The notes under the pieces are model-generated. The model had not been told where the DNA came from and made no database searches. It was given only the letters and a program-made list of their open reading frames with translations. The translations under genes were made by a program, and so were the position numbers. From IMG/VR virus record IMGVR_UViG_3300022752_000038, positions 31,042 to 95,041 of that record: a DNA stretch of 64,000 nt; one strand, written 5' to 3'. This DNA is from a virus. This document shows, piece by piece, positions 19,987-60,821 of the stretch (position 1 is the stretch's first letter; every line of letters starts with the position of its first letter).

Positions 19987-20283
19987 ATGTTTAAATTTAA
20001 AGACGTTGAAGTAACATTTGACTTTAAGACATTGCCGCAGTGTGATCAGGAATACCTCCGTACTATGGCATATGAAACGGTACAAAACAGATCTGTTAAG
20101 CATACCGGCTGGACATTTAATGATATGTATTCTGATGCCAGCAATTATACAATGTTTAACGACAAAGATTCTATGTGTACTTACATGGACGAATTTAGTG
20201 ACAATTATGATCATACAGCATCACATTTGTTGCACGGTAAGAAATACTATTTTGCTTGGACATATTCAACAAAGAACAGATAA
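19987..20283 (+). CDS. Unknown protein (98 aa)
   Basis: The frame joins queD by a TAATG overlap, which supports it over an alternative frame at 20018-20290. The protein is polar and aromatic-rich (EVTFDFKTLPQCDQEYL; KYYFAWTYSTKNR) with no known motif. It may be part of the deazaguanine unit only by position. Confidence 0.5.
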   Translation: MFKFKDVEVTFDFKTLPQCDQEYLRTMAYETVQNRSVKHTGWTFNDMYSDASNYTMFNDKDSMCTYMDEFSDNYDHTASHLLHGKKYYFAWTYSTKNR

Positions 20284-20759
20284 TGGCTAGATATATTTCG
20301 ACAAAACTATTCGATAACTATTCGGTAGCAATACGCCAATGGAAAGCTCAGCATTCGCATTGCCAGTTGTTACATGGATATGCTTTGAAATTTAAAGTAT
20401 GGTTTGCTAGTAATGAACCGGACATTGACAATCAATTAGATGATATGAATTGGATTGTAGACTATGGCGGCTTTAAGACACCGCCTCAAGGTAACGGATT
20501 AAAAGATTGGATGGACCATATGTGGGACCATACAACTTTAATTCAAAAGGATGATCCATATGCAGACATCTTTGAACAATTGGGTCAGATGGGTCTGGCT
20601 AAGGTACACTTCCTAGAAAAGATGGGTGCTGAAAGTTGTGCTCGTTTAGTATACGAACATTTTAATAAAGTGTTATCTAATACCGATGCGGGTCGTTGCA
20701 AATGTATTAAAGTAGAGTGTTTTGAAAATGATAAAAATAGTAGTATATACGAAGAATAA
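20283..20759 (+). CDS. queD: 6-carboxy-5,6,7,8-tetrahydropterin synthase QueD (158 aa)
   Basis: Start is the ATG overlapping the previous TAA. The T-fold enzyme signature is seen: KAQHSHCQLLHGYALKFKVW at about residues 20-40 (two zinc-site histidines and the HGH-like turn as LHGY), WIVDYGGFK near 57, and the MDHMWDHTTLI block near 79. It turns dihydroneopterin triphosphate, made by FolE, into carboxytetrahydropterin. QueE follows 330 bases later and FolE 1.4 kb later, so three steps of the 7-deazaguanine pathway are together. Confidence 0.85.
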   Translation: MARYISTKLFDNYSVAIRQWKAQHSHCQLLHGYALKFKVWFASNEPDIDNQLDDMNWIVDYGGFKTPPQGNGLKDWMDHMWDHTTLIQKDDPYADIFEQLGQMGLAKVHFLEKMGAESCARLVYEHFNKVLSNTDAGRCKCIKVECFENDKNSSIYEE

Positions 20760-21093: not shown

Positions 21094-21864
21094 ATGGAAA
21101 AAATAACAGATTATAATAAAGTATTGCCCATCAATGAATTGTATAGATGTGTGCAAAGTGAAGGTAGTAGAGCAGGACGTCCTACTATAGCAATCCGTGT
21201 AACCGGATGTACCCACCGTTGTTGGTTCGGAGAAGGTGGTTGGTGTGATAGCTGGTATAGTTCAATACATCCAGAAAAAGGTAAGTTTACTTTTAATGAT
21301 ATTGTGAAAATCTATGATGAAAATCCGCATATCAAAGAAATGATGATCACTGGAGGATCACCTACGATGCAACCAGCATTATTAAATAAATTAACTGAAT
21401 TTGCTTTTAATCGTGGTATTATTACTACTATTGAAACAGAAGGTAGTCATTTTGTACAAACAGATTTTCCTATTGATTTAATATCATTGTCACCTAAATT
21501 TAGTAACAGTGTTCCTAAATTAGGAATTCAAACTCCTAAAGGTAGTGTAGTAGATCAGCGGTTTATTGATCAACATAATAAATTTCGTCTCAATGAAGAA
21601 GCTATACGTAAAATGATTGCATATCATTCTGATTATCATTATAAGCCGGTATGGGATGGCTCTATAGAAAATTTACGTGAGATTGAAGAATTTCGAGTAA
21701 AATTTGGAATTCCGAAACATAAAACATATATTATGCCTGCAGGCGATACTAGGGAAGCATTGATTAAAATGTATCCGTTAGTATTTGATCTATGTGCAGA
21801 ATATGGATATAATATGACCGGACGTGATCATATTATTGCATTTGATACTCAACGAAATGTTTAA
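21094..21864 (+). CDS. queE: 7-carboxy-7-deazaguanine synthase QueE, radical SAM (256 aa)
   Basis: The N-terminus NELYRCVQSEGSRAGRPTI and the cluster region GCTHRCWFGEGGWCDSWYS are QueE-like, followed by MMITGGSPTMQ near residue 85 and TIETEGS near 114. The cluster cysteines are C39, C43 and C51, so the spacing is C-x3-C-x7-C rather than the usual C-x3-C-x2-C; QueE is known to tolerate inserts in this loop. The enzyme makes the 7-carboxy-7-deazaguanine base. No QueC-like gene (which makes preQ0) is seen in the window. Confidence 0.85.
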   Translation: MEKITDYNKVLPINELYRCVQSEGSRAGRPTIAIRVTGCTHRCWFGEGGWCDSWYSSIHPEKGKFTFNDIVKIYDENPHIKEMMITGGSPTMQPALLNKLTEFAFNRGIITTIETEGSHFVQTDFPIDLISLSPKFSNSVPKLGIQTPKGSVVDQRFIDQHNKFRLNEEAIRKMIAYHSDYHYKPVWDGSIENLREIEEFRVKFGIPKHKTYIMPAGDTREALIKMYPLVFDLCAEYGYNMTGRDHIIAFDTQRNV

Positions 21865-21881: not shown

Positions 21882-22181
21882 ATGAAAATGAAACCAGTAG
21901 GCGACATTGTAGTCGTTCTCGAAAGAGAAAAGCAAGACAAGACTAAAACAGGAATTTTGCTTATGGAAGGTACAGATAACTATGTACATGCAGATGTAAT
22001 TGCAGTCGGCGATGGATTGTTTACGCAAACCGGAGATCGTATTCCGATGACAGTTAAAATTGGAGATCATGTGTTAATTCATAAAAATGAAGTTTCAAAA
22101 CATAAGCGTTTATCTATTAATGATAAAGATTATTTAGTGATCCGCGAATCAGAAATTTCAATAATTAATATCGAACAATAA
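21882..22181 (+). CDS. groS: Co-chaperonin GroES-like (99 aa)
   Basis: The fold pattern is that of GroES: KPVGDIVVVLEREKQDKTKTG with the mobile-loop hydrophobic triplet ILL, ADVIAVGDGLF, VKIGDHVLIHKNE and a last strand DYLVIRESEISII. Length fits. It would cap the chaperonin at 31051 or the host GroEL, as T4 gp31 does for capsid folding. An AAAAAGGATAAG site precedes the ATG. The stop overlaps the folE start by one base. Confidence 0.85.
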   Translation: MKMKPVGDIVVVLEREKQDKTKTGILLMEGTDNYVHADVIAVGDGLFTQTGDRIPMTVKIGDHVLIHKNEVSKHKRLSINDKDYLVIRESEISIINIEQ

Positions 22182-22882
22182 TGGCTAAAATAATTAATTC
22201 AATTGAAACTGTAATGACTGGTTTTGCTAATGGCATATCAACTCAACTAGCAGAAAAACAATTGACAGATGGTCCTGATGCATCGCTTTCTAATTATGAA
22301 AAGGCAGAGATTATTAACAAAGCTGCTCATCATTTCGGAGAGTTCCTTACAGCATTAGGAGTTGATTGGGTTAACGATCCCAATTCCAGTGATACGCCCA
22401 GACGTGTAGCTAAAGCATATGTAACTGATCTATGGGCCGGTAGATTCAATCCGGCCCCATCGATCACTGCATTTCCTAGTGACGGCTATGATGGTATGGT
22501 ATTTGAAGGTGGTATTCCATTAACAAGTATGTGTAGTCATCATCATCAAACCATAATGGGTTTGGTACATGTAGCATATATTCCTGGAGACCAAAGCAAG
22601 GTGATTGGTTTAAGTAAACTTAATCGTATTGTAGAGCATTTTGGTCGTCGCGGTGCAATACAAGAACAATTGACAGTTGCTATTCATAATGCAGTTGATA
22701 CTATCATTGAAGATAACAAAGGTGTTGCTGTAATGATTGAAGCTACTCACAATTGTGTTCAATGCCGAGGTGTTAAACACGGAGGTGCCAGTATGAAGAC
22801 ATCTAAATTGACTGGGGCATTTAAAGATGATCCGTCTACTCGTAACGAGTTTTACGAATTCGTAAAAGGTTATAATGACTAA
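22181..22882 (+). CDS. folE: GTP cyclohydrolase I FolE (233 aa)
   Basis: The zinc and active-site blocks are present: PLTSMCSHHHQTIMG (about residue 110), KVIGLSKLNRIVEHFGRR (about 142) and EATHNCVQCRGVKHGGASM (about 185). The enzyme makes dihydroneopterin triphosphate from GTP, the first step for folate and for 7-deazaguanines. With QueD and QueE nearby it most probably feeds DNA modification. The gene overlaps groS by one base and hpt by eight. Confidence 0.92.
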   Translation: MAKIINSIETVMTGFANGISTQLAEKQLTDGPDASLSNYEKAEIINKAAHHFGEFLTALGVDWVNDPNSSDTPRRVAKAYVTDLWAGRFNPAPSITAFPSDGYDGMVFEGGIPLTSMCSHHHQTIMGLVHVAYIPGDQSKVIGLSKLNRIVEHFGRRGAIQEQLTVAIHNAVDTIIEDNKGVAVMIEATHNCVQCRGVKHGGASMKTSKLTGAFKDDPSTRNEFYEFVKGYND

Positions 22883-23390
22883 TAACATGGAAATACTTAT
22901 ACCGGAGTATAAAATTGAACGACGAGTACGTGCCATGGCACATCGACTTTCGGAGGAACATAAGTCTAGTGGTAATTCATTACCACCAGTTATGATATGT
23001 GTGTTGAACGGCTCCTTTATGTTTTTTTCTGATCTAGTAAAAGATATGGGAATTGATATCGAAGTAGACTTTATACGTCCTAAATCATATCATGGCAAGG
23101 ATAATTCTTCTGGTGTAACTTTTACTAAGGAATTAGAGATTGACCTTAAAGGTAAAAGGGTTTATATTATCGAAGATATTGTCGATACTGGTCAGACTAT
23201 GTTAGAAATTTTACAACGTGTTGATTCACGTATGCCGTCTGAAGTTAAAGTAGTAACTCTAGTGCATCGAAAAGACAATCCAGTAACTGTAGATCATTTT
23301 TGTTTTGAAATAGCAGATGAATGGGTAATTGGGTATGGCTTTGACGATAACGGACTAAAACGCAATTATAGAAACATTTATAAAATATAG
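22875..23390 (+). CDS. hpt: Hypoxanthine/guanine phosphoribosyltransferase (171 aa)
   Basis: The PRPP loop VYIIEDIVDTGQTM (about residue 97) is clear, with VLNGSFMFFSDL near 38, VDFIRPKSYHG near 57 and the C-terminal WVIGYGFDDNGLKRNYRNIY. It salvages guanine and hypoxanthine to nucleotides. In this context it could also recycle guanine released by the transglycosylase at 27569 when guanine in DNA is exchanged; that link is inference. ATG 22875 overlaps folE by eight bases; ATG 22887 is an alternative. Confidence 0.88.
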   Translation: MTNNMEILIPEYKIERRVRAMAHRLSEEHKSSGNSLPPVMICVLNGSFMFFSDLVKDMGIDIEVDFIRPKSYHGKDNSSGVTFTKELEIDLKGKRVYIIEDIVDTGQTMLEILQRVDSRMPSEVKVVTLVHRKDNPVTVDHFCFEIADEWVIGYGFDDNGLKRNYRNIYKI

Positions 23391-26063: not shown

Positions 26064-26513
26064 ATGATAGGACATAGAAAACATTGGTACGGCAAAGAAG
26101 TCGAAGGTCGATATACAGACTTAGAGACATTGTTTATAGCAGATTTAACAGATATTGCGACTGACGGTATAACATCGTTAGGTAAAATTCCGGCGCACAT
26201 TTATTTATGCGCTCCAGCTGTTCGACAGTTGATCAACGGCATTGATGGCTTTAGTTGGGAAACAATTTTATCTTTGAAAGATGATAATACGTTTTTTACA
26301 TTAGAAGTAAATGAAGATATGTTAGGGCTTACGCCGCCCATTGTTAGAATACATTGTCATATGCTGTTAATGTTTAATTGTTATGATGCTCGTTTGTTAA
26401 AGAAAACGGATAGTATTAAAATAGTTTATGATGATTATTCATTATATACATCTACCGTGCATAATATGCAGCACGTAACTCCCGATGATTATAAATTCGA
26501 TCGATATGAATAA
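26064..26513 (+). CDS. Unknown protein before the glycosyltransferase (149 aa)
   Basis: The N-terminus MIGHRKHWYGKEVEGRYTDL is distinctive but I do not recognise the family. The rest is mixed alpha/beta with several cysteines and histidines (VRIHCHMLLMFNCYDARLL). It is the first gene of a unit with the glycosyltransferase (8-base overlap) and the DpdA-like enzyme, so a part in DNA modification is possible but not shown. Confidence 0.5.
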   Translation: MIGHRKHWYGKEVEGRYTDLETLFIADLTDIATDGITSLGKIPAHIYLCAPAVRQLINGIDGFSWETILSLKDDNTFFTLEVNEDMLGLTPPIVRIHCHMLLMFNCYDARLLKKTDSIKIVYDDYSLYTSTVHNMQHVTPDDYKFDRYE

Positions 26514-27582
26514 AGTTTGGATTGTAGATTTAGAAGCTGTTGATACTAGGTATACTGGTCAATGGAAAACCTGGATACCTGAGGTTGTTGCAAAGCATAT
26601 AACTAGCAACAATTTAAAGTATGAAGTTTCGATCATCGAAGGAGATACTGATATTCCAGAAGCCACTACTCCCGGTGCATTTTTGAACTTTGGTGGTACT
26701 AATGTATATAAAAGTTCTCAAATGGCTAAGATAGCTAGAGCATTTACAAACGGAGAAGTTCGTTCAGGTGATATCTTTTTATATACAGATGCTTGGAATC
26801 CTACCATTATACAATTAAAGTATATGAGTCAGTTACTAGGCATCCCAGTAAAGATACATGCTCTTTGGCATGCTGGTAATTATGATAAAAATGATTTTTT
26901 AGGTAGACTTATTAAAGATAGTTGGGTGAAAAACTTTGAACTGTCATTGGCTCAGGCTATCGATTATAATTGGTTTGCTTCGGATTACCATATTAAATTG
27001 TTTAGAGACACATACGGTTACGAAGATATCAAATGTTATCGTACAGGATGGCCAATGGAGTATCTAGAAACATATATCAAACCTAAACAAAAAGAAAACA
27101 TTGTATTGTTTCCACATAGGATAGCTCCAGAGAAACAGTTGGATATATTTAGAGAGATAGCAAAAGAAATGCCGGAATATGAATTTGTGATATGTCAGGA
27201 TCGTAAACTTACTAAAGATGCATATCACGAAATGCTAGGTAAAGCTAAAGTAGTATTTTCGGCTAACTTACAAGAAACGTTGGGTATATCGTGCTATGAA
27301 GCTGTATTAGCAAATGCAGTACCGATGGTACCTAATCGTTTAAGTTACGATGAAATGTATTCGGCGACATTTAAATATCCAAGTGAATGGACTGAATCTT
27401 TAGAGTCGTCTCGTAACTATCGTAGCTTCTTGAAAGCTACAATACGGTTTCATATGGAATGCTATGATAATAATAGTAATTATTCATATCATTCTGTAAT
27501 GAACGAACTTAAAACAAAATTGACACAAGAATATTTTAGTTGTAATAATTTATTAAAGGTAATGTTCAATGACAAATACTAA
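26506..27582 (+). CDS. GT-B glycosyltransferase coupled to the DpdA-like enzyme (358 aa)
   Basis: ATG 26506 is chosen because it sits in an ATGAATAA overlap with the previous stop. The C-terminal half has GT-B features: ENIVLFPHRIAPEKQLDIFR (about 198), EYEFVICQDRK, and SANLQETLGISCYEAVLANA (about 255), where the E-x-x-G-x-x-x-x-E donor-binding pattern is seen. The N-terminal half is an acceptor domain (FLYTDAWNP; IHALWHAGNYDKND). The end overlaps the transglycosylase gene by 14 bases. Position suggests that it glucosylates DNA, perhaps the deazaguanine base itself; that is inference. Confidence 0.65.
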   Translation: MNKVWIVDLEAVDTRYTGQWKTWIPEVVAKHITSNNLKYEVSIIEGDTDIPEATTPGAFLNFGGTNVYKSSQMAKIARAFTNGEVRSGDIFLYTDAWNPTIIQLKYMSQLLGIPVKIHALWHAGNYDKNDFLGRLIKDSWVKNFELSLAQAIDYNWFASDYHIKLFRDTYGYEDIKCYRTGWPMEYLETYIKPKQKENIVLFPHRIAPEKQLDIFREIAKEMPEYEFVICQDRKLTKDAYHEMLGKAKVVFSANLQETLGISCYEAVLANAVPMVPNRLSYDEMYSATFKYPSEWTESLESSRNYRSFLKATIRFHMECYDNNSNYSYHSVMNELKTKLTQEYFSCNNLLKVMFNDKY

Positions 27583-28762
27583 ACCAAAAAGATTTATATA
27601 CTTCCCGTCATTATCAGCGGGCGGCTCGGCAGACGCATTTAAAAAGAATAAAGATGTTCAGCCTGGATTGACATGTAGATTTTATGCAGAAGATTTTCCA
27701 GAAGAATGGAGACATCCGTATTTTCTAGTGACCGCGGGTCATTATTATAAAAAGCCAGAGACTAGAAAAGACTTTGGACTGGAAGATTCATTTGTATTCG
27801 GCGACTCGGGCGGATATCAGTTAGCCCGCGGAGCTCTAAAGTGGAGTCCGGAGATTCGTGAAACTATTTTTCATTGGTTAGAAAACAATGCAGATATTGC
27901 TGCAAATTTAGATATTCCGCCTAGAACTACATATGCTAATCGATTTGAAGATTCTTTAAAGATTAGTTTAGAAAACTTTCAGTGGTTTGAAAAACATCAA
28001 TCCGGCAAGTGTACATTTCTTAATGTACTGCAAGGATCCAATACGCATCAATATTCATATTGGTATGATCAAGTCAAGGATTTTGAATTTGGAGGCTGGT
28101 GTGTTGGTGGTCCTCAAAAGCTTGTAGACTTTTTCTATGCATTGGCAGTAATGTTAAAGAATCGAGAGTTTGAAAAAAAGCGTAATGGATATATTCACTT
28201 GTTAGGCATTTCTAAAATAAGTGATTTTTATTTGTTAAGTACACTACAAAACAACTTTAATAAGCATTTTGATAGTAGAATACAAGTATCAACAGATAGT
28301 TCATCGCCAGGACAATATCCAGTATATGGAACATATCTTCATTCACCTCAATTGAGTAAAATGACGTTTAGCCATTTATATTTTCCAAAAGGAGATAATC
28401 TCCCATATAGGGCAGATGATAAAGTACCAAATCCGTTCGGTCATCCGATTGATATGACATTTGGAGAAGTAGCTAAATATGACGGTAATTGTACTTTAAA
28501 AATGGTATTGAATAATGTGTTTGCATTTAACAAAACTATTGATATGGTTAATGAATTATGTGATGCGCATTTAGAACTATTAGAAACAATTGTGCCGACC
28601 GATTTCTATCAGATACTTAAAAGTATGAATGAAATGTTTGAAGACCCGGATCAGGCATTAGTTATTTATGAAAAGTATCGTCATTACTATATGAACTATG
28701 GCGGTACTCATGTAACATCAACAAACGAAAATACATTTAACAAATTTTTTGAACTAGTATAA
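27569..28762 (+). CDS. dpdA: DpdA-like 7-deazaguanine transglycosylase, TGT superfamily (397 aa)
   Basis: TGT-like landmarks: FVFGDSGGYQLARG at about residue 73 (the first catalytic Asp in DSGGYQ), ADIAANLDIPPRT at about 107, FLNVLQGSNTHQYSYW at about 150, FEFGGWCVGGPQK at about 170, and STDSSSPGQYPVYG at about 245, a candidate for the nucleophile Asp. The Cys-rich zinc site of tRNA enzymes is not seen, as in known phage DpdA proteins, which act on DNA. It would swap guanine in DNA for a 7-deazaguanine. It is linked to QueD, QueE and FolE upstream. Confidence 0.75.
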   Translation: MTNTKPKRFIYFPSLSAGGSADAFKKNKDVQPGLTCRFYAEDFPEEWRHPYFLVTAGHYYKKPETRKDFGLEDSFVFGDSGGYQLARGALKWSPEIRETIFHWLENNADIAANLDIPPRTTYANRFEDSLKISLENFQWFEKHQSGKCTFLNVLQGSNTHQYSYWYDQVKDFEFGGWCVGGPQKLVDFFYALAVMLKNREFEKKRNGYIHLLGISKISDFYLLSTLQNNFNKHFDSRIQVSTDSSSPGQYPVYGTYLHSPQLSKMTFSHLYFPKGDNLPYRADDKVPNPFGHPIDMTFGEVAKYDGNCTLKMVLNNVFAFNKTIDMVNELCDAHLELLETIVPTDFYQILKSMNEMFEDPDQALVIYEKYRHYYMNYGGTHVTSTNENTFNKFFELV

Positions 28763-31050: not shown

Positions 31051-32670
31051 ATGGCAAAACAAATTTTCTTTGATTCTCACAGTCGAGATGGCTTAAAGCG
31101 TGGAATTGATACGCTAGCAAATGCAGTAAAAGTAACATTAGGACCTAAGGGCCGTAATGTAGTTATTGACAAACCAGGCATGCCGCCCATTGTAACAAAA
31201 GACGGAGTATCTGTAGCTAAAGAAATTGATCTTAAAGATCCTTTAGAAAACATTGGCGCCCGACTAGTTAAGGAAGTAGCTAGCAAAACTGCCGATATTG
31301 CAGGAGATGGAACTACAACCGCCACGGTATTGGCACAGTCAATTATTACATCTGGTATTAAACATGTAGCAGCTGGAGCTAATCCTATAGAAGTAAAGCG
31401 AGGAATAGATAAAGCTGTAGCGGCCGTCGTTAACGAATTAGATAATATTGCAACTAAGATTGATAATGAACATGAAAAGATCAAACAAGTAGCTTCAGTA
31501 TCTGCTAATAACGATGATGCTATTGGTACATTGATTGCTGATGCAATGTCAGAAGTTGGATTAGAAGGAGTTATTACTGTTGAAGAAGCAAAAGGAATTG
31601 AAACGGAACTTAAGACCGTAGAAGGAATGCAATTTGATAGAGGCTATATTTCGCCCTATTTTATCACGGATAATGCTAAGATGGAAGCCGTGTACGAGAC
31701 TCCGTATATTCTAATCTTTGATAAGAAAATCAGCCATGTTAAACAATTCTTGCCGATACTAGAAAAGGTAGTACAGACCGGAAAACCATTGGTTATTATT
31801 GCCGAAGACGTTGATGGAGATGTGTTAGGTACATTGGTATTGAATCGTGTACGTGCTGGACTTAAAGTTGTAGCAGTTAAGGCACCAGGATTCGGTGATC
31901 GTAGAAAAGAAATGTTGATGGATATTGCAACACTTACCGGTGCTAATCTTGTATCTGAAGAATTAGGACGTACGTTGGAAGATACTACAATTGAAGATTT
32001 GGGTATCGCTGAAAAGATAATTGTAGCCAAAGACACTACTACAATTGTCAATGGTTACGGGGCAGCTGAAGATATCAACCAACGTATTGAAATTATTAAG
32101 AATCAAATCGATGGCAGTACTTCAGATTATGACCGTGAAAAGCTACAAGAACGCTTAGCTAAAATGGTAGGCGGAGTAGCTGTATTATCTATCGGCGCTG
32201 CAACAGAAGTTGAAATGAAAGAGAAGAAAGACCGAGTCGATGATGCAGTTAGTGCAACCCGCGCTGCGGTAGAAGAAGGAATTGTTCCTGGAGGAGGTGT
32301 TGCCTTTATACGAGCACAAAAAGCACTTGATACTATTAATGTAGACAACGATGATCAGTCGTTTGGTGTTAATATTATTTATAAAGCTATCGAATCACCA
32401 CTTCGACAAATTTGTGAGAATGCAGGAGTTGATGCATCGGTTATTATACGTGATATTAAAAATAGTAACGAGGTTGGTTACGGATATAATGCTCGTACAG
32501 AACAATTCGAAAACCTATTGACATCAGGCGTTATTGATCCAAAGAAAGTTACACGTGTAGCGCTTCAACATGCAGCGTCAATTGCATCAATGGTATTAAC
32601 AACCGAGTGTGCTGTTATTAATATTCCAGAAGAGAATACTAAGCAACAAGCACCTCAATATGATTTGTAA
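31051..32670 (+). CDS. groL: Chaperonin GroEL, full length (539 aa)
   Basis: The full GroEL sequence is recognisable: [36 protein letters not shown] (ATP site, catalytic Asp), [14 protein letters not shown] and [16 protein letters not shown] in the middle domains, and [13 protein letters not shown] near 400. It ends with [13 protein letters not shown], without the GGM-repeat tail of cellular GroEL. The length is close to the usual 545. Full-length phage GroEL is unusual; T4 itself uses only a GroES substitute. It is preceded by AAAAAGG. It may fold phage-specific proteins after host decay. Confidence 0.95.
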
Positions 32671-35046: not shown

Positions 35047-36501
35047 ATGCAACAGTTACAATTACCAAAGCTTAGGAAGATCGATCCTAACAAACCAAAG
35101 AAAAAGAAAATTTTATTGTTGTCAGATGACCTGCGTATGCATTCAGGTATCGCAACAATGTCACGTGAAATTGTCCTTAATACATGTAGCGAGTACGATT
35201 GGGTTCAATTAGGCGCAGCAATCAAACATCCGGATTACGGAAAGGTATTTGATATAAGTGCTGATGTAGCTAAAGAATCTGGAGTAGCTGACGCTAGCTG
35301 TAAAATTTATCCGTACAACGGATATGGCGATCCACAAATTCTACGTCAACTAATAGATATAGAGAAGCCCGATGCTATTCTGCATTTTACAGATCCTAGA
35401 TTTTGGGGATGGCTATATCAAATAGAACATGAGATCCGTCAACAGATTCCATTGATGTACTATAACATATGGGACGATCTTCCATATCCGTTTTGGAATG
35501 AGCCATTTTATGAGTCATGTGATTTGTTAATGAATATATCACGTCAAACGCAAAACATTGTAAAAAATGTAATACGTAAACATCCAAAGCAAGATTGGGC
35601 AGTACAATGGGTGCCACATGGTATCAATGAGCGATATTTCTTTCCTATAACGGAAGATATGCCAGTATGGAATGATTATGATAAATTTGTTACTGAGTTT
35701 AAAAAGGCGCATAATGCTGAATTTGTAATCTTTTGGAATAACAGAAACATACGTCGTAAACAGCCTGGCGATGTTATTTTAGCTTATAAGCGTTTTTGCG
35801 ACTCATTGCCAGCAGATCAATCTAGTAAATGTGTATTATTTATGCATACACAGATTGTAGACGAACATGGTACAGACCTAATGGCAGTTAAAAACACGGT
35901 ATGTCCTATGTATAAGATTGTATTTAGTGATAAACCAGTGCCAGCAAATATTATTAACTATTATTACAATATGGCTGATGTAACTGTAAACATCGCTAGT
36001 AATGAAGGATTTGGATTGTCTAGTGCAGAATCTATTATGGCAGGAACGCCTGTAGTAAATAATGTAACTGGTGGATTGCAAGATCATTGTAGATTTCAAA
36101 CCGAGGATGGTGAATGGATAGAATTTACGTCAGAGTTTCCTAGTAACCATAACGGCGATTATACGCAATGTGGCCAGTGGGCATATCCAGTATTTCCGAG
36201 TAATAGATCATTGCAAGGTTCACCATTAACTCCTTATATATTTGATGATCGCTGTAAATTTGAAGATGTAGCTGATGGCATTAAATATTGGTATGATATG
36301 AGCCGCGAACAACGTAAGAATGCAGGACGAATTGGACACGCATGGTTACGTAGTACAGAGTCAAATATGTCGGCTCGTAGAATGGGTAAACGATTTATCG
36401 AGTGTATGAATACGTGTTTCGAAAATTGGACACCTAGAAAAAAATATTCTTTTTATAAAGTTACAAAAACAACATATCCAGAACAAGTAGGAATTATATG
36501 A
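35047..36501 (+). CDS. GT-B glycosyltransferase (484 aa)
   Basis: The body is a GT4-like glycosyltransferase: KKILLLSDDLRMHSGIATMS near the start, WVPHGINERYF near 193, FWNNRNIRRKQPGD near 232 and NIASNEGFGLSSAESIMAG near 317 (the E-x-x-x-x-x-x-E donor pattern). The first residues MQQLQLPKLRKIDPNKPKKK carry the LPKL(K/R)K motif that recurs twice at the end of the next gene product. It is the first gene of the glycan island, under the ATATTTAT site. Confidence 0.75.
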   Translation: MQQLQLPKLRKIDPNKPKKKKILLLSDDLRMHSGIATMSREIVLNTCSEYDWVQLGAAIKHPDYGKVFDISADVAKESGVADASCKIYPYNGYGDPQILRQLIDIEKPDAILHFTDPRFWGWLYQIEHEIRQQIPLMYYNIWDDLPYPFWNEPFYESCDLLMNISRQTQNIVKNVIRKHPKQDWAVQWVPHGINERYFFPITEDMPVWNDYDKFVTEFKKAHNAEFVIFWNNRNIRRKQPGDVILAYKRFCDSLPADQSSKCVLFMHTQIVDEHGTDLMAVKNTVCPMYKIVFSDKPVPANIINYYYNMADVTVNIASNEGFGLSSAESIMAGTPVVNNVTGGLQDHCRFQTEDGEWIEFTSEFPSNHNGDYTQCGQWAYPVFPSNRSLQGSPLTPYIFDDRCKFEDVADGIKYWYDMSREQRKNAGRIGHAWLRSTESNMSARRMGKRFIECMNTCFENWTPRKKYSFYKVTKTTYPEQVGII

Positions 36502-37826
36502 AACCATTTATTGTAATACAAGGACCAGTAGCTACCAGATCTGGCTACGGTGAACATGCAAGAGATCTAGCATATAGCTTAATTCAATCAAACAAATACG
36601 ATGTAAAGATTGTATCATTGCCATGGGGAGCAACGCCTATGAATGCATTGGATTTAAATAATCCTAAACATAAAGCAATTTCAGATTGTATTGCTAGACA
36701 AAACATAACAGTACGTCCAGATGTATTTATTCAAATATCAATTCCTAACGAGTTTCAGCCAATGGGTAAATACAATATTGGAGTTACTGCAGGAATAGAA
36801 ACTGATACAGTATCGCCGCAGTTTTTGGAAGGCTGTAATCGTATGGATTTAATTATTACAACGTCAGATCATTCCAAACAAAGTTTTGAAATGACTAGTT
36901 ATGAAATGCGCGATAAAAATACTAATCAGGTTACAGGTACACTTAAACTAGAAAAGCCTGTTAAAGTATTGTTTGAAGGATTAGATCTAGATGTCTATAA
37001 AAAACACAAATATGATTACAATACAATATTGCCTGAGTTAAATGATATTAAAGAATCATTTTGCTATTTATTTGTAGGGCATTGGTTAAAAGGAGACTTT
37101 GGAGCCGATCGTAAAGATATCGGATCTTTAATTAAAACCTTCTGTGAAGCATTTAAAAACAAAGCCAAACAGAATCGTCCGGCACTTGTACTTAAAACAA
37201 GTCATGCAACATTTAGTATCATGGATAGAGATCATATCATGCAAAAGGTGGAACAATTGTTAGCTCCATATGGCATTGATGCTCCTAGTGTGTATTTGAT
37301 ACATGGGGATCTGAATGAAAATGAAATGAATGCTTTGTACAATCATCCCAAAATCAAAGCGTTAGTATCATTTACTCACGGAGAAGGATATGGCCGACCA
37401 TTACTAGAATTTACAGTAACTGAAAAGCCAGTTATAGCTCCAAATTGGTCTGGACAAGTTGATTTCCTTAAGCATGCAGTATTGTTACCAGGAGAAGTTA
37501 CTCAGGTACATCCGTCAGCAGCAGATGATTGGATCTTGCGAGAATCTAGGTGGTTTACTGTTAATTATGGTCATGCTGCAGCTGTCTTGCGTGACATGAT
37601 GGAAAATTATAAGAACTATACAGATAATGCCAAGCGGCAGTCATATTTAAGCAAGACACAATTTTCTATAAATCAAATGTCAGCAATGTTTTGTAATATA
37701 GTAGAGGAGTCGTTAAATACAATGCCTAAACAAGTACAATTGCAATTACCAAAACTAAAGAAAGTCGGAGAAACAACGGACGCTCCTAAAATTACATTAC
37801 CAAAATTAAAAAAGGTTGAAGCATGA
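36498..37826 (+). CDS. GT-B glycosyltransferase with LPKLKK tail repeats (442 aa)
   Basis: It overlaps the previous stop (ATGA). GT4-like features: GPVATRSGYGEHARDLAYSL near the start and SFTHGEGYGRPLLEFTVTEK near 295. The tail carries two LPKLKKV copies, QLQLPKLKKVGE and ITLPKLKKVEA, which match the start of the upstream enzyme. The pair is likely to form a complex or to dock on the same partner. Acceptor unknown. Confidence 0.75.
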   Translation: MKPFIVIQGPVATRSGYGEHARDLAYSLIQSNKYDVKIVSLPWGATPMNALDLNNPKHKAISDCIARQNITVRPDVFIQISIPNEFQPMGKYNIGVTAGIETDTVSPQFLEGCNRMDLIITTSDHSKQSFEMTSYEMRDKNTNQVTGTLKLEKPVKVLFEGLDLDVYKKHKYDYNTILPELNDIKESFCYLFVGHWLKGDFGADRKDIGSLIKTFCEAFKNKAKQNRPALVLKTSHATFSIMDRDHIMQKVEQLLAPYGIDAPSVYLIHGDLNENEMNALYNHPKIKALVSFTHGEGYGRPLLEFTVTEKPVIAPNWSGQVDFLKHAVLLPGEVTQVHPSAADDWILRESRWFTVNYGHAAAVLRDMMENYKNYTDNAKRQSYLSKTQFSINQMSAMFCNIVEESLNTMPKQVQLQLPKLKKVGETTDAPKITLPKLKKVEA

Positions 37827-38326
37827 AATTAGAATACGATAGCATATCGCCGATCACAAAAAACTTATGTGTATTGTCTGAGCCAGATGACACTACGGGC
37901 GTTATGAGTTACATGTGTATGGAATCTGGATATGTCACAACAGACCAATTGATTGAAGGTTCTCAACAAATCGAAGAGTTCGAAAAGGGCATTACAACAT
38001 TGATGCGACAAATTAAATTTACAGATCCTGAAACTAAATTAGTTTGGTATCCTGCTTTTTTAAGATCTCCATATGCCATGTTGTTTTGTACCGGCACCAA
38101 TGAGCATGACATGTTATGGCAAGTAGCTAAAGTAGTAGATCTGCCCAAAGAATTGCGTGCACAAGTACCTGGTAAAGAAGGGGAATATTATACATCGATG
38201 ATTGATACGGCAAATGCTACGTCATATGATAAGGCTTTGTTCGAAAATGCGCTCGATTTATTTTATGAGATTATTTTTAAAGAGACACAAACAGACCCAA
38301 TTGAATTGAATCAAGATGAAAATTAG
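37823..38326 (+). CDS. Unknown conserved protein in the glycan island (167 aa)
   Basis: It starts by ATGA overlap. Visible blocks are PDDTTGVMSYMCMESGYVTT and VWYPAFLRSPYAMLFCTG; I do not recognise the family. The C-terminus is acidic. It lies between glycosyltransferases and may be unrelated to glycan synthesis. The last 11 bases overlap the next gene. Confidence 0.5.
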   Translation: MKLEYDSISPITKNLCVLSEPDDTTGVMSYMCMESGYVTTDQLIEGSQQIEEFEKGITTLMRQIKFTDPETKLVWYPAFLRSPYAMLFCTGTNEHDMLWQVAKVVDLPKELRAQVPGKEGEYYTSMIDTANATSYDKALFENALDLFYEIIFKETQTDPIELNQDEN

Positions 38327-38939
38327 TTACGCAGTTACAGTTTGTAATGAATTGGAAGAAATCAAACGTCTAATTAGTTTTCTCCATCAACACAAACGCC
38401 CTGAAGATGAAATTTGTGTTTTATTAGATAAACCAAAAGCCCCCCCAGAGTTATTATACCAATTAAGTGTATATTCTTCTGAAGGTTTTATTGTCTTAAC
38501 AGAAAGTGAATTTAAAGGACATTTTGCTGATTGGAAAAATCAATTAATGGATATGTGTTCTGGTGATTACATCTTCCAAATTGACGCTGATGAAATTCCT
38601 CATATTAATCTAATTGAAAACTTACCTGCGTTACTACGAGACAACCAAGCAGCTGACATGATCAGAGTACCTAGAGTAAATACTGTAGAAGGTTTAACTC
38701 AAGCACATATAGCAAAGTGGGGATGGAATGTAAATGAAAAAGGATGGGTAAATTGGGCTGATTGGCAAACGAGGATCTATAAGAATAACGGAATTGTTAA
38801 ATGGAAGAATAAAGTTCATGAAGTACTAGAAGGATTTAATATCCACGGCATGCTTCCAATGGAAGAAGAATGGGCTTTATATCATCCAAAAACAATAGAA
38901 CGCCAGGAACGTCAAAATAATTATTACAATACTTTATGA
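38316..38939 (+). CDS. GT2-family glycosyltransferase (207 aa)
   Basis: GT-A features: ISYAVTVCNELEEIKRLISF, DEICVLLDKPKAPP, HFADWKNQLMDMCSGDYIFQ and the D-x-D-like IDADEIPH near residue 91. This short enzyme class is often linked to polysaccharide or protein glycosylation. A run of seven C at 38440-38446 sits inside the coding sequence, a possible slippage site. Confidence 0.75.
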   Translation: MKISYAVTVCNELEEIKRLISFLHQHKRPEDEICVLLDKPKAPPELLYQLSVYSSEGFIVLTESEFKGHFADWKNQLMDMCSGDYIFQIDADEIPHINLIENLPALLRDNQAADMIRVPRVNTVEGLTQAHIAKWGWNVNEKGWVNWADWQTRIYKNNGIVKWKNKVHEVLEGFNIHGMLPMEEEWALYHPKTIERQERQNNYYNTL

Positions 38940-39664
38940 AAAATGTAGTTATATTTCAAGACTGGGTTCAAGGGAAAACATATGGGCATGAATGGCAGCA
39001 AGATGAATTATTTTCATATTTTAGAGCACAGATTGATAATAGTTTAAGATTGGGCTGGAATCCTAAAGATATTGTTATATGTACTAACTTAGATTTTAAA
39101 TATAAAGATGTTACGATTATACAATTAAATGACATATGCCAGTACAATAAATATTTTAATAAACAATACGGTATCGCCGAAATATTACGACGTGAGTTAA
39201 TCACAGAACCGTTCTGGTTTCATGACTTTGACGATTGGCAGTTAAACGCATTCGAGTTTCCAGGCTTCACTGGCGATATTGGCGTATGTAGATATATAGA
39301 TGATTCGCAATGGAATACAGGATCTGTATTTGTCAAACCTTCAAGTATTGATATATGGGAACTAATTGTTGACTTCATGAAAATAAATGACGGGCATCCG
39401 GATTTATTGCAATCAGGAGATGAAAATATTTTTAATTTTATATATCAACAATATCCTTCAATACAACATAGATTTTGTTTATTAAATAATCAATATAATG
39501 TTGGATGTACACAATTCGACTATAGATATAAATCATCTAACTTGCCAGTGTATGTAGGAGCGTTTAAACCTAATGATATAAGTAATTATAAGAAGTTTTA
39601 TAGTCAAAATTTAATTGACAGTGAACTACATAATATATTTAAAGAACATGGATTATTATCTTAA
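38936..39664 (+). CDS. Probable GT-A glycosyltransferase-like protein (242 aa)
   Basis: The D-D-rich FWFHDFDDWQLNAFE near residue 93 resembles a nucleotide-sugar binding D-x-D, and WNTGSVFVKPSS near 122 resembles the acceptor side of GT-A folds. Family not certain. It overlaps the previous gene by four bases (ATGA). Confidence 0.5.
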   Translation: MKNVVIFQDWVQGKTYGHEWQQDELFSYFRAQIDNSLRLGWNPKDIVICTNLDFKYKDVTIIQLNDICQYNKYFNKQYGIAEILRRELITEPFWFHDFDDWQLNAFEFPGFTGDIGVCRYIDDSQWNTGSVFVKPSSIDIWELIVDFMKINDGHPDLLQSGDENIFNFIYQQYPSIQHRFCLLNNQYNVGCTQFDYRYKSSNLPVYVGAFKPNDISNYKKFYSQNLIDSELHNIFKEHGLLS

Positions 39665-39701
39665 ATTTATTAAGATAAATTGAAAATAGTTTATATATTG
39701 C

Positions 39702-39709
39702 TATAAATA
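39702..39709 (+). promoter_or_regulatory. TATAAATA motif, T4-late-like, + strand
   Basis: CTATAAATAAAA lies nine bases before ATG 39719 and is an exact T4 late promoter octamer on the coding strand. A TATATT box lies upstream as well (39694-39699). It is the only clear + strand copy noticed. Confidence 0.35.
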
Positions 39710-39718
39710 AAAAATACT

Positions 39719-40147
39719 ATGAGAATAACTAATATTGACACTTTAAGTGCATACTTAGACAGACTTATTACAGAAAATATTAAATTATATTTTTTTAAGA
39801 AAGATGGTTTAGCTGATAAAGTAGAGCATCAATTAATAATAGTTTCTGAAATTAAGAAAAAAATATCTGAATTAATGTATGAAGTTGTTACTAACAGCTC
39901 ATATGAGTATGTGGAAGAATATCGTACTTTTAATGAAGATTCAATTATTGAAGAATTAGAAGAATTAATACAAAATGATATTAATATTGGAGAAGCTGAT
40001 AGAGCTAGACTAGAAGAAACAACAAAAGATATTCCTAATGTGGATCGTATGATTGTAAATGAAAAGCGATTACGTAAGGCTAATGAAGGTCGGGCTAGAA
40101 ATAAAAACAAAATCGATGATTTATTTAAAACGGCATTTAAAAAATGA
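39719..40147 (+). CDS. Unknown helical protein (142 aa)
   Basis: Mostly helical and charged (MRITNIDTLSAYLDRLI, then EEYRTFNEDSIIEELEEL and IGEADRARLEE). Similar small proteins occur among glycosyltransferase genes of T4-like phages, as I recall, but no function is known. The four-base overlap with the following epimerase ties it to the island. Confidence 0.5.
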   Translation: MRITNIDTLSAYLDRLITENIKLYFFKKDGLADKVEHQLIIVSEIKKKISELMYEVVTNSSYEYVEEYRTFNEDSIIEELEELIQNDINIGEADRARLEETTKDIPNVDRMIVNEKRLRKANEGRARNKNKIDDLFKTAFKK

Positions 40148-41157
40148 GTCTGAATAAAACAATATTGATTACAGGTGTAGCTGGCCTGTTAGGAAGTAGA
40201 TTAGCTGATTGGCTTATAGAGAATAAGCCCGAGTATCGAATTGTCGGTATAGATGATTTAAGCGGCGGATATATAGACAACGTACATGTAAATGTAGCAT
40301 TTAATCATATTAATATAGCAACAAACGTATCATTACTTAGCGAGTTGTTCCAACGTGAAAAGCCTGAATATGTATATCATATGGCAGCCTATGCCGCCGA
40401 AGGATTATCTCCGTTTATTAGAAACTATAATTATCAAAATAATTTGTTAGCTACCGCGAACATTGTTAATGAATGTATCAAACACGATGTTAAGCGATTA
40501 GTATTTACATCTACAATGGCAGTATACGGCCATGGCGAAGGTGGAGTATTTGATGAACTACAGATGCCTAAACCAATTGACCCATATGGAGTTGCTAAGT
40601 ATGGTTGTGAAATGGATATACAAATTGCCGGAGAACAACATGGATTAGATTGGTGTATCATACGTCCGCATAATGTATATGGAGCTAAACAAAACATATG
40701 GGATAAATATAGAAATGTATTGGGTATATGGATGTATTATCATATACATGGGCAGCCTATAACAATATACGGCGATGGTACTCAAAAGCGTGCATTTTCA
40801 TATATCGATGATTCATTAGAGCCATTATTTAATGCATGTATTGAAGCAAAGGCATCTAAACAAATTATTAACCTCGGAGGCATTAAAGAATATAGTATTA
40901 ACGAGGCAGCTAATATATTATCAGATATATTAGGTGGCGCTAATAAAGTTTATTTAGAAAAACGTCATGAAGTACATACAGCCGTACCTACATTTCAAAA
41001 GTCGATTGATATATTAGGATTCGAACATCATACAGATCTTAAACAAGGATTATCTAAAATGTGGGAATGGGCACGACAACAGCCGAAACGTGATCGATTC
41101 ATATGGCCTGAATATGAAATAGAAAAAGGAATTTATAATTTTTGGAGTAAAAAATGA
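40144..41157 (+). CDS. NAD-dependent sugar epimerase/dehydratase, GalE-like (337 aa)
   Basis: The extended SDR signature is complete: TGVAGLLGSRLADWLI (NAD-binding G-x-x-G-x-x-G), MAAYAAEG, TSTMAVYG, and the catalytic Y-x3-K in YGVAKYGCE near residue 150. It probably interconverts UDP-sugars for the glycosyltransferases. It overlaps neighbours on both sides by four bases. Confidence 0.85.
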   Translation: MSLNKTILITGVAGLLGSRLADWLIENKPEYRIVGIDDLSGGYIDNVHVNVAFNHINIATNVSLLSELFQREKPEYVYHMAAYAAEGLSPFIRNYNYQNNLLATANIVNECIKHDVKRLVFTSTMAVYGHGEGGVFDELQMPKPIDPYGVAKYGCEMDIQIAGEQHGLDWCIIRPHNVYGAKQNIWDKYRNVLGIWMYYHIHGQPITIYGDGTQKRAFSYIDDSLEPLFNACIEAKASKQIINLGGIKEYSINEAANILSDILGGANKVYLEKRHEVHTAVPTFQKSIDILGFEHHTDLKQGLSKMWEWARQQPKRDRFIWPEYEIEKGIYNFWSKK

Positions 41158-41741
41158 ATATAGAAGAAGTAGTAGATAGAGCCTTTAGTTTATATATGCC
41201 ACAGGAACGTGATGAGATTGTGCAATTAGCTAAGTTTGTTTATGAGTTACAACCTAAGGTTATAGTTGAAATAGGAACAAAGTTTGGTGGCACGTTTATG
41301 ATATGGAATGAAATAGCTCCCGGAATTAAAATAAGCGTTGATTTAGTTGAAGGTATACATGGCGGAGTATCTAGATCAGATACAGATGCGCGTAATGCTA
41401 GATTCAAAGAGTTGTATAATGATTCGTGTATTTTTATTGAAGGCGACTCGCATGATAAATCTACATATGATTTACTAGTTAAGACTTTAGGCGGTAAGAC
41501 AATTGATTTTCTATTTATCGATGGCGATCATACATATGAAGGTGTGAAAGAAGATTACGAAACATATTCTACATTGGTTAGACAATCTGGATATATTGGA
41601 TTTCATGATATTAATGATACGCAACGCCATAGAGATCGTAATGTGTATGTAGGTAAGTTATGGAATGAGTTAGTCGGGGAAAAAACTGAATTTAATGTTA
41701 ATGCTGATTGGGCAGGTATAGGAGTAATTAAAAAAGGTTAA
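41154..41741 (+). CDS. SAM-dependent methyltransferase, class I (195 aa)
   Basis: The Rossmann methyltransferase signature VIVEIGTKFGGTFMIW near residue 37 and FLFIDGDHTYEGVKEDY near 118 fit the Methyltransf_24 group, enzymes often found in sugar modification gene sets. It may O-methylate a glycan. The start overlaps the epimerase by four bases. Confidence 0.72.
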   Translation: MNIEEVVDRAFSLYMPQERDEIVQLAKFVYELQPKVIVEIGTKFGGTFMIWNEIAPGIKISVDLVEGIHGGVSRSDTDARNARFKELYNDSCIFIEGDSHDKSTYDLLVKTLGGKTIDFLFIDGDHTYEGVKEDYETYSTLVRQSGYIGFHDINDTQRHRDRNVYVGKLWNELVGEKTEFNVNADWAGIGVIKKG

Positions 41742-41742
41742 T

Positions 41743-42636
41743 ATGTCTAAACGTATTGTAATTATACCAAATTTCGGAGAATCACATTTAATTAAATGCC
41801 AGATACCAAATTTAGTATCGACATTGAATCCGGATATTGTAATCTATAACGAAGGCGTATTTCCGACAGGGCCGGAAAGTCGTACATTAATCGATTCGGA
41901 GTTTAGAAAAAAATATTGTTATAAAGATACTAATTTAGCATGGGATACATTAGAAACACAACAATTAATACGACAGGCTCAATTAGATTATACGAATATA
42001 CAATGGATACATAACGAAATGACATTTCCTATAGGCATGAAAGCTTCAGATGCCTATACATATGCAGTTTCCAATTGGGATGAATTAGGTATTAATGTAG
42101 AGTATGGGGATTATATTTTTCCATATGAGCCTGATATTTTTCATATGGAAACTATGGGCGACGGAATTTCTTCGTTATTAGAACAGTTACAACCAAACGA
42201 AGGGTTTACTAGTATATGGTTAGATTTTTTAGAAACTCAGTATTATATAGAAGCTTGTAATAATCCATTAAATGGACATGTAAAACGTAGGAAAATTGCA
42301 TTACGATTCGGCGATATAGATTTTTATCGACATGTTGTAAGCCAATTCGAATCGCAACGATATAACATGTTACATGAAAGTGATTTAGTTACATATCATT
42401 ACAATTGGTTTAGATTTGACAAAAATAAAGAGTTGCGTTACGATCAAATAGTGAGAAGCTCTGAATATTGGGACGCGTTCGAACAAGGATTATCTAAAAT
42501 AAAATATAATTCAGTGCATAATATACAGGAAGATGTGTTATTACGACCTTCACGTGATAATATAACTAGAATGGCATCATATATTAATATCGATCACCCA
42601 GCGGCTATAAAATCGCATACAAATTTTATTAAATAA
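41743..42636 (+). CDS. Unknown protein in the glycan island, possible glycosyltransferase (297 aa)
   Basis: It begins KRIVIIPNFGESHLIKCQIP and later has YGDYIFPYEPDIFHMETM; the length and context suggest a GT-A-like fold, but no D-x-D motif is convincing. No clear family is recognised. Confidence 0.45.
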   Translation: MSKRIVIIPNFGESHLIKCQIPNLVSTLNPDIVIYNEGVFPTGPESRTLIDSEFRKKYCYKDTNLAWDTLETQQLIRQAQLDYTNIQWIHNEMTFPIGMKASDAYTYAVSNWDELGINVEYGDYIFPYEPDIFHMETMGDGISSLLEQLQPNEGFTSIWLDFLETQYYIEACNNPLNGHVKRRKIALRFGDIDFYRHVVSQFESQRYNMLHESDLVTYHYNWFRFDKNKELRYDQIVRSSEYWDAFEQGLSKIKYNSVHNIQEDVLLRPSRDNITRMASYINIDHPAAIKSHTNFIK

Positions 42637-42644
42637 AGAAATAC

Positions 42645-43226
42645 ATGAAATACATATTTTTATTTTTTGGGGCACATGACGGCCGCGTTGTTAGTCAGTT
42701 AGATAAACTTACTATTGACAAAGTTTACGGAGAAGCTACCCATTGGGATGAAATACATTTATTTGAACCGCAGACAGAGCACGAATCAACATTAAAAACT
42801 TTAGCATTAAATGATAAAAGAATTAACTACCATAAATGTGCAGTTAGTACAGAAAATAAGGCCGGTACTCTATATGTAAAAGGCGATTTTGGTTATTGTA
42901 GTAGTACAATCGATCAATATAAGCATGCCGGCCATCTTCATTTTACAGAAACTGTACAAATTATTGATATTGTAGACTGGATTACAAAAAATACCTCTGC
43001 ACAAGACTATGTATGTATTGATATGGATATAGAATGTGAAGAATATAACATTTTACCTTATATTATTGATTCAGATATTATGGATAGAATTAAATTTATT
43101 AGTGTAGAATTTCATGAAGGTAAATCTCATTATTGGTCACAAGAAGGATACGATAGACAGGTACGATTATTTACTTACCAACGATTAGGAAATAAATTTA
43201 TAGATCATGATACGTATTACGCGTAA
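42645..43226 (+). CDS. FkbM-type methyltransferase (193 aa)
   Basis: LFFGAHDGRVVSQ is the SAM-binding loop, HLFEPQTEHE, and DYVCIDMDIECEEYNIL near 125 match the FkbM group. Such enzymes methylate sugars. It is preceded by eight bases after the upstream stop. Confidence 0.72.
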   Translation: MKYIFLFFGAHDGRVVSQLDKLTIDKVYGEATHWDEIHLFEPQTEHESTLKTLALNDKRINYHKCAVSTENKAGTLYVKGDFGYCSSTIDQYKHAGHLHFTETVQIIDIVDWITKNTSAQDYVCIDMDIECEEYNILPYIIDSDIMDRIKFISVEFHEGKSHYWSQEGYDRQVRLFTYQRLGNKFIDHDTYYA

Positions 43227-43252
43227 ATTTTAATTATGTGGAAAATTTAGAT

Positions 43253-44026
43253 ATGGAAAATAACAAGCCGATAAAAGTTTTATTTTTAGTCATGTACTCT
43301 GGAGAAGGAGATTATGATAAATGTATCGAATCTGCTAAAAATCAGATTGGTATAGAACCGTATTTTTACGAGGTGAGACACCAGCCGTTAATGAATGCTC
43401 ATTATGAAATATATTCTTATTGGAATGAACATAGAGATGAGTATGATATGTTCGTAAAATTAGATGCCGATTTTGTTTTATACAATGATACAAAGATTAT
43501 TGACGTATATAACGCTATGAGTAAAACAAATTTAGCAATACTATGTGTATGGGCTGATGATTTTTTACGTAAACGTCTAATTCCCGGAATGGTTTTTGGT
43601 AATAAGCATTGTACATTTAACGTTAATAATGTAATTAACGGCGAAAAGGCAGTCTATGACACAGGCATGTATGTCATTGAAGACGGATATCGTTTTGACG
43701 ATACTTCTATAGCCCAAAGTTTAGCTCCATCGGCATTGCACGGTCATTATTCATATCCTATACAATTATTTGCGCAAGGTGTTAAACGTAGATTACGTAG
43801 AGGGGGTCAGTGGGATATATATCAAATAGTGCAGCATGAATTTAATAATAATCCGGATAAATTAAGATTTATGTTTTTAATCGGCTGGGCTTTAGCTGAA
43901 AATGTATTATCTAACGACTATAACTACACGGATAAGAAATTTAATGAATATTTTACCAAAGTTAATGAGTTAGTTAATACAACAGACCATGGGTATAAAG
44001 TTTCCAATATACTTAATAATCTATAG
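43253..44026 (+). CDS. GT-A type glycosyltransferase-like protein (257 aa)
   Basis: ATG 43253 is chosen over GTG 43238, which would add five residues. The N-terminus IKVLFLVMYSGEGDYDKCIE and the MFVKLDADFVLYNDT block with its D-x-D near 73 match GT-A folds. The C-terminal part is less clear. It ends before a leaderless promoter-like site. Confidence 0.6.
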   Translation: MENNKPIKVLFLVMYSGEGDYDKCIESAKNQIGIEPYFYEVRHQPLMNAHYEIYSYWNEHRDEYDMFVKLDADFVLYNDTKIIDVYNAMSKTNLAILCVWADDFLRKRLIPGMVFGNKHCTFNVNNVINGEKAVYDTGMYVIEDGYRFDDTSIAQSLAPSALHGHYSYPIQLFAQGVKRRLRRGGQWDIYQIVQHEFNNNPDKLRFMFLIGWALAENVLSNDYNYTDKKFNEYFTKVNELVNTTDHGYKVSNILNNL

Positions 44027-44033
44027 TTAACGG

Positions 44034-44062
44034 TTGTTTTTTAATAGAAAAGTTATTATATT
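44034..44062 (+). promoter_or_regulatory. Promoter inside the glycan island
   Basis: TTGTTTTTTAA followed by TATATT (44057-44062), ending six bases before ATG 44069, the same geometry as the leaderless sites. The upstream element is weak. Confidence 0.45.
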
Positions 44063-44068
44063 AACCAT

Positions 44069-47957: not shown

Positions 47958-47960
47958 ACT

Positions 47961-48761: not shown

Positions 48762-48774
48762 TAAAAAGGATAAT

Positions 48775-60470: not shown

Positions 60471-60821
60471 ATGATTACAAATATTATAGTAAATTTACAA
60501 GTAGAAGGAATGCATAACTGGCCAAATGCCAAACGCGTGTTCCCGGATGTAGGATTTTTATCTGATCTTCATAGACATATATTTCATTTTCAATTAAAGA
60601 AACGTGTTAATCATGATGATCGTGATGTAGAATTCATTAGGTTCAAACGAGACGTGCAAGACTATTTGCATCTTAAGTATTTCACAGAAGAACATCGATG
60701 TCATTATTTTGGACCTATGTCATGTGAAATGTTAGCTAAGGAATTAGTAGAATATTTTGATTGTGTATATGTCGCTGTATACGAAGATAATGAAAACGGC
60801 GCAGAAGTTATCGTAGATTAA
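60471..60821 (+). CDS. Conserved phage protein, possibly T-fold (116 aa)
   Basis: VEGMHNWPNAKRVFPDVGFL, HRHIFHFQLKKRV, CHYFGPMSCEMLAKEL and YVAVYEDNENGAEV form a conserved pattern found in T4-like phages. The order of His residues and the E-D-x-E-N-G-A-E end recall QueD-like T-folds, but this is weak. It is on its own leaderless promoter. Confidence 0.5.
   Translation: MITNIIVNLQVEGMHNWPNAKRVFPDVGFLSDLHRHIFHFQLKKRVNHDDRDVEFIRFKRDVQDYLHLKYFTEEHRCHYFGPMSCEMLAKELVEYFDCVYVAVYEDNENGAEVIVD

Follow-up and report, generated by a model that had tools for sequence, protein, structure and literature searches.

The window analysed here is a stretch of 64,000 nucleotides. It spans positions 31042-95041 of a virus record of 95 kb (IMG/VR, IMGVR_UViG_3300022752_000038) that is itself a fragment. 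It carries the following genes, all on the plus strand:

20283..20759, plus strand: QueD-like 6-carboxytetrahydropterin synthase (PF01242, E 2.5e-11; phrog_2389, E 5e-33)
21094..21864, plus strand: QueE-like radical SAM 7-carboxy-7-deazaguanine synthase (phrog_2076, E 7.5e-46; PF04055, E 1.4e-5)
22181..22882, plus strand: FolE GTP cyclohydrolase I (PF01227, E 4.4e-47)
22875..23390, plus strand: purine phosphoribosyltransferase (PF00156, E 5e-25)
26064..26513, plus strand: small protein, function not assigned (hhalign E 9e-4 to the c6 family)
26506..27582, plus strand: predicted GT-B, GT4-type retaining glycosyltransferase (GT; structural model, PDB fold matches, conserved motif)
27569..28762, plus strand: predicted DpdA2-related enzyme of the TGT fold, 7-deazaguanine transglycosylase-like (TGT; structural model, fold matches, residues)
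60471..60821, plus strand: phrog_17812 protein (family c5), possibly a QueD-like T-fold protein (phrog_17812, E 1.3e-25)

The QueD reading frame is listed from a TTG at 20256, and the ATG at 20283 was taken from the translation. The GT gene starts at the ATG at 26506 (an in-frame ATG at 26485 is also possible) and stops with the TAA at 27580-27582; the TGT gene runs from the ATG at 27569 to a stop at 28762, and the two overlap by 14 bp (27569-27582), with a Shine-Dalgarno-like AAAGG for the TGT start near 27555-27560, inside the GT gene. Both reading frames and their overlap are thus present as the first-pass annotation had described them, a GT-B gene overlapping a DpdA-like gene by 14 bases, and the QueD, QueE and FolE genes that it had noted upstream of the GT are placed there by Pfam and PHROG matches (PF01242, phrog_2076 and PF01227, respectively). 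The small gene at 26064-26513 in turn overlaps the GT gene by 8 bp (ATGAATAA), and the two overlaps chain the three genes into one unit, which is directly preceded by the DNA polymerase gene and followed by the genes for the sliding clamp and a dUTPase. The small protein is weakly similar to the c6 protein, of about 175 residues, which in other phages lies between TGT and GT; profile searches of the PDB with c5 and c6 found nothing. The phage also encodes homologues of GroES (21882-22181) and GroEL (31051-32670), and in close relatives the GroES gene likewise lies within the QueE-FolE stretch.

The window TGT protein has no Pfam match at a cut-off of 0.1, PF01702 is reached in only 2 of 25 relatives (E 0.0058), and the match to phrog_10773 is weak (E 1.3e-5 over 49 residues); profile searches of PDB sequences gave nothing useful. 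As sequence profiles from Pfam and PHROG left this protein without a name, we turned to structure prediction. An AlphaFold model built from an alignment of 20 relatives, without public-record sequences, has a mean pLDDT of 74; its top 10 Foldseek matches in the PDB are all TGTs (E 2.5e-7), and in VIA it superposes on tRNA-guanine transglycosylases with a Z score of 21.5 over 299 residues (rmsd 4.0). The catalytic and base-binding motifs DSGG (D79, S80, G81, G82), LD.P (D115) and LQG (Q155) are present, as is D243. Moreover, D79, D115, Q155, H210 and D243 are shared by all, or almost all, of a set of 20 TGTs from cassette and comparison phages, a conservation that spans the enzymes partnered with GT and those partnered with QueC, with a few exceptions at Q155. 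A search for residues specific to the GT-partnered set and possibly binding a carboxylate found none. The modelled fold and the catalytic residues therefore place the window enzyme in the TGT/DpdA superfamily, and the earlier label "DpdA-like", which no sequence profile alone carries, is supported by the predicted fold. The sequence link to DpdA2 itself is weak: the cassette TGTs of phages ACP17, X1 and ZZ01 match phrog_10773 strongly, the same PHROG as DpdA2 of Vibrio phage nt-1, and the window enzyme falls in a separate clade of the TGT tree.

The TGT fold is also that of tRNA enzymes, and animals have a GT4-type enzyme that adds mannose to tRNA queuosine. The TGT and the GT might accordingly modify tRNA, yielding a glycosylated 7-deazaguanine comparable to mannosyl-queuosine. 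We regard this as highly improbable, as the CxCxxC zinc motif of tRNA TGTs is absent from the window enzyme and from all cassette TGTs, the genes lie beside those for DNA polymerase and the sliding clamp, and the related nt-1 enzyme comes from the founding DpdA2 carrier, a phage with dPreQ0 in its DNA (Hutinet et al. 2019, PMC6884629).

The GT model (pLDDT 86) finds its best PDB matches in BshA and sucrose-phosphate synthase (Z 24.4 over 318 residues, rmsd 3.5). An E-x7-E motif (E257/E265) of the form QETLGISxYE is conserved, together with R205 and K210; against PF00534 the window GT scores 20 bits (cut-off 26.4) and its relative in phage X1 45.5 bits. Judging from the model, this is a GT-B, GT4-type enzyme that is apparently intact, and from motifs and predicted folds both GT and TGT look active. 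No structure of a T4 alpha- or beta-glucosyltransferase or of DpdA is among the fold matches listed, which is no argument against kinship. In three loci (L095-L097) the GT has been replaced in situ by a GT-like gene of only 24% identity, while the neighbouring genes keep 38-74% identity (TGT 57%; QueD lowest, at 38-41%). The replacement gene (L095, 6814-8001; L096, 6802-8001) keeps the coupled, overlapping position but lacks the first glutamate of the E-x7-E motif; these versions and that of phage ZZ01, whose type they resemble, have a QD.V form in its place. It would seem that what persists is a glycosyltransferase slot beside the TGT, filled by different enzymes, perhaps through selection for different sugars. 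In Synechococcus phage BUCT-ZZ01, another GT4-type gene (L102, 4010-5353) precedes the TGT, which is thus flanked by two glycosyltransferases, possibly for a disaccharide or for alternative sugars.

The pairing of the two genes recurs widely. Scanning viral contigs for GT relatives gave at least 599 stretches that encode one, of which 80 loci were kept by GT similarity alone; together with the loci found through the TGT, copies of the window itself and a small number of public records, they make up a set of 94 GT loci. A TGT homologue is present in 82 of these, always on the same strand and in either order (GT-TGT or TGT-GT). Of the other 12 loci, most are cut off upstream, starting no more than about 3 kb before the GT; in Phosso, the TGT is located elsewhere in the genome, away from the GT. 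Among the loci with GT first, the overlap is kept (-14, -11, -8 or -4 bp) in 22 of 23, including the window and its own copy L001, a persistence which argues that it is not due to chance. In close relatives of the window phage the order is QueD-QueE-GroES-FolE-phosphoribosyltransferase-DNA polymerase-small gene-GT-TGT-clamp-dut, with overlaps of 4 to 14 bp. A second, larger lineage, near Pseudomonas phages Paride and PA5oct, has the TGT upstream of the GT, followed by FolE and QueE (in Paride, TGT and GT overlap by 1 bp). The cassette is also found in Sinorhizobium phage Phosso, in Acidovorax phage ACP17, where the TGT overlaps the GT by 4 bp between QueD/FolE and QueE, in Xanthomonas phage X1, with the adjacent GT and TGT followed by QueE, and in Synechococcus phage ZZ01. 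Common ancestry of the neighbourhood would not by itself readily account for adjacency that is conserved in opposite orders. In the large metagenomic phage lineage, an HhH-GPD DNA-glycosylase-like gene (L067, 11247-11663; family c21, 24 members) lies near the cassette.

These linkages bear on the idea that the GT serves the glycosylation of virions, lipids or surface glycans and adjoins the TGT incidentally. The window does contain a large cluster (35047-52547) of many glycosyltransferase-like, NAD-dependent epimerase-like and methyltransferase-like genes; as the genome thus encodes other glycosyltransferases, some of its sugar chemistry is unrelated to the cassette, and this cluster is probably for virion or surface glycans and separate from the cassette GT. 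Xanthomonas phage PhiXhv-12 also has a distant relative of the GT beside genes resembling GlmS and a GlcNAc-malate deacetylase, with no c5 gene. However, an incidental neighbourhood is distinctly improbable when divergent phages repeat the GT-TGT linkage, in either gene order and with reading frames that overlap, and when GT and QueC are fully complementary in the records tested (see below). The PhiXhv-12 genes (L103, 4618-7852) are possibly another phage sugar-modification system in their own right.

Another alternative is that the GT acts before insertion, either on a free 7-deazaguanine that the TGT then inserts whole, or on a pterin from FolE and QueD, in the manner of the cyanobacterial UDP-glucose:tetrahydrobiopterin glucosyltransferase. 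The GT model does match such a glucosyltransferase in the PDB (5zer), FolE adjoins the GT in several lineages, and the eukaryotic TGT accepts queuine, a base with a bulky side chain. Yet 5zer is one of many GT4 matches, at 14% identity and ranked below BshA, and a pterin pathway would have no need of the QueE and TGT that accompany the GT. We consider action before insertion or on a pterin rather unlikely.

In none of the 15 cassette records searched does QueC (PF06508) score above the cut-off, whereas the control genomes are positive; five of these records are complete phage genomes (287, 469, 156, 200 and 156 kb), all of them with QueD. The sub-cut-off matches in five cassette records were rejected as true QueC, being partial and scoring 12-16 bits against a cut-off of 22. 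QueF is likewise not found above the cut-off in the 10 cassette records tested. For comparison, phages with related TGTs but without this GT were taken by TGT similarity (nt-1, pf16, Ps15, 1.081, 2.275 and Peetri), with 9g as a chosen positive control: QueC is present in all six, as well as in 9g (7/7), and the GT profile matches 10 of 10 cassette records and none of these seven phages. Among complete or near-complete genomes alone, the count for QueC is 0 of 5 in cassette phages and 6 of 6 in the related TGT phages that lack the GT. Fisher's test of this split, with 9g counted in, gives 0.0013, a value that is descriptive only, as it ignores relatedness and includes the chosen control. On the TGT tree, at least two to three changes of the partner state (GT or QueC) can be counted across well-supported branches, so few switches that the independent-pair test (p 0.25-0.5) could not have reached significance.

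From the lack of QueC in the window, the first-pass annotation had suggested the 7-carboxy form as the starting base. That lack extends to five complete related genomes and is thus no artefact of a short window; for the window phage itself, known from a fragment record, the absence of QueC is probable. The absence of QueC and QueF supports a pathway that would stop at 7-carboxy-7-deazaguanine (CDG) or be diverted from there. In X1, a PAPS-reductase-like PP-loop gene (L101, 6332-6865) directly follows FolE in the cassette and might act on the carboxyl group in QueC's place. Phosphoribosyltransferases of PF00156 are encoded near the cassette in several phage lineages, and in Ps15 such a gene stands just before QueC and the TGT; the cassette enzyme could recycle the guanine released by base exchange.

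A further partner is the phrog_17812 protein (c5), of about 120 residues with invariant His, Cys, Glu and Asp. In Paride, Phosso, ACP17, X1, ZZ01 and the large metagenomic lineage, its gene is a direct or close neighbour of the GT or TGT; in the window it is about 32 kb from the cassette. The phrog_17812 profile is found in 10 of 10 cassette records and in none of 8 others. It is nevertheless not specific to the GT cassette: five more phages carry it near FolE without a phrog_10773 TGT or a close GT, and four of these five are without QueC. By its distribution, phrog_17812 marks the QueC-poor branch rather than the GT. The profile matches QueD at E 2.2e-4, compared with 0.14-0.69 for unrelated controls, a weak but specific signal by which the protein may be a QueD-like T-fold enzyme. 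It is not simply the QueD of these phages, as a PF01242 QueD is also present in 13 of the 15 cassette records.

The phrog_17812 protein may change CDG before or after insertion. It is therefore possible, though as a minority view and one that overlaps our main reading, that the inserted base is not CDG: phrog_17812 would convert CDG by decarboxylation or reduction, or the host would supply preQ0 or preQ1, and the GT would act on that base or elsewhere. The occurrence of phrog_17812 in every cassette record examined and in the FolE-linked phages, four of them without QueC, speaks for such a conversion, as does its specific match to QueD; this T-fold match is weak, however, the activity is only predicted, and plain 7-deazaguanine would leave the conserved GT no side chain to act on. 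This last point is also the main weakness of the simple reading, for if phrog_17812 were a CDG decarboxylase there would be no 7-substituent left to glycosylate. Also against our main reading, the CDG carboxylate would be an unusual acceptor for a GT4 enzyme, since these mostly act on hydroxyls. Cui and colleagues (2023) reportedly detected dCDG as well as dDG in phages and proposed a decarboxylase acting on CDG (DpdL) from prediction; that work is not known to include a glycosyltransferase step. The cassette phages would resemble those reported dCDG and dDG phages in having a QueC-less branch that ends at CDG or a decarboxylated form.

Taken together, we consider it fairly probable that these genes constitute a phage DNA-hypermodification cassette, in which CDG or a derivative is inserted in DNA and then glycosylated. 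FolE, QueD and QueE would convert GTP to CDG; without QueC or QueF, the pathway would end there or be diverted by the phrog_17812 protein; the DpdA2-like transglycosylase would swap guanine in phage DNA for CDG or its derivative; the co-translated GT4 enzyme would move a sugar from a nucleotide-sugar onto the 7-substituent of the inserted base; and the bulky modified guanine would block host nucleases. The folds, the conserved catalytic motifs and coupling, and the pathway genes without QueC and QueF are computational results. The earlier proposal that the inserted base is glycosylated gains from the fold and residues of the TGT, the GT4-type partner, the recurrent pair and the QueC-less pathway; DNA rather than tRNA as substrate, insertion before glycosylation, the sugar and its acceptor group on the base, and the protective role are what we infer from them.

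Several known systems are partly comparable. As in the DpdA2 system of nt-1, a TGT-fold enzyme is accompanied by FolE, QueD and QueE, and the TGTs of ACP17, X1 and ZZ01 share phrog_10773 with it, a kinship which, given the dPreQ0 in nt-1 DNA, speaks for our main reading; nt-1 and its relatives, however, have QueC and neither the GT nor phrog_17812, and the cassette phages are the reverse. In T4, alpha- and beta-glucosyltransferases act on hydroxymethylcytosine; the step proposed here is akin to this in that a GT-B enzyme would glycosylate a modified DNA base after replication. Unlike in T4, the acceptor would be a 7-deazaguanine, and the GT fold is nearest BshA and GT4. The dCMP-hydroxymethylase/thymidylate synthase family (PF00303), moreover, is absent from the three complete cassette genomes of ACP17, X1 and ZZ01, which argues against a hydroxymethylcytosine or hydroxymethyluracil acceptor made by the T4 route there; Paride and Phosso do have a member of the family, possibly a thymidylate synthase. 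The animal tRNA enzyme QTMAN/GTDC1 is also a GT4-type enzyme adding a sugar to a nucleic-acid 7-deazaguanine; unlike in that case, DNA is the likely target here, and no Pfam link between the two was found.

Whether divergent large phages do carry a sugar on DNA 7-deazaguanine, made by a QueC-less pathway with the previously unassigned partner phrog_17812, is in our estimate evenly balanced; it would be the first glycosylated purine in DNA. To our knowledge, the glycosylated DNA bases described so far are all pyrimidines, and we know of no sugar-bearing guanine in the DNA of any organism. The open-licence literature contains 7-deazaguanine in phage DNA and glycosylated pyrimidines, but no description of the two combined as a glycosylated 7-deazaguanine in DNA, so that this novelty is provisional. 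The proposal is directly testable: Pseudomonas aeruginosa PAO1 supports Paride, a phage studied for its replication on dormant cells (PMC10761892), and related phages. If true, glycosylated 7-deazaguanine would represent a new class of DNA hypermodification, joining two phage anti-restriction strategies, 7-deazaguanine and glycosylation, and the product of the QueC-less 7-deazaguanine genes of phages would be explained.
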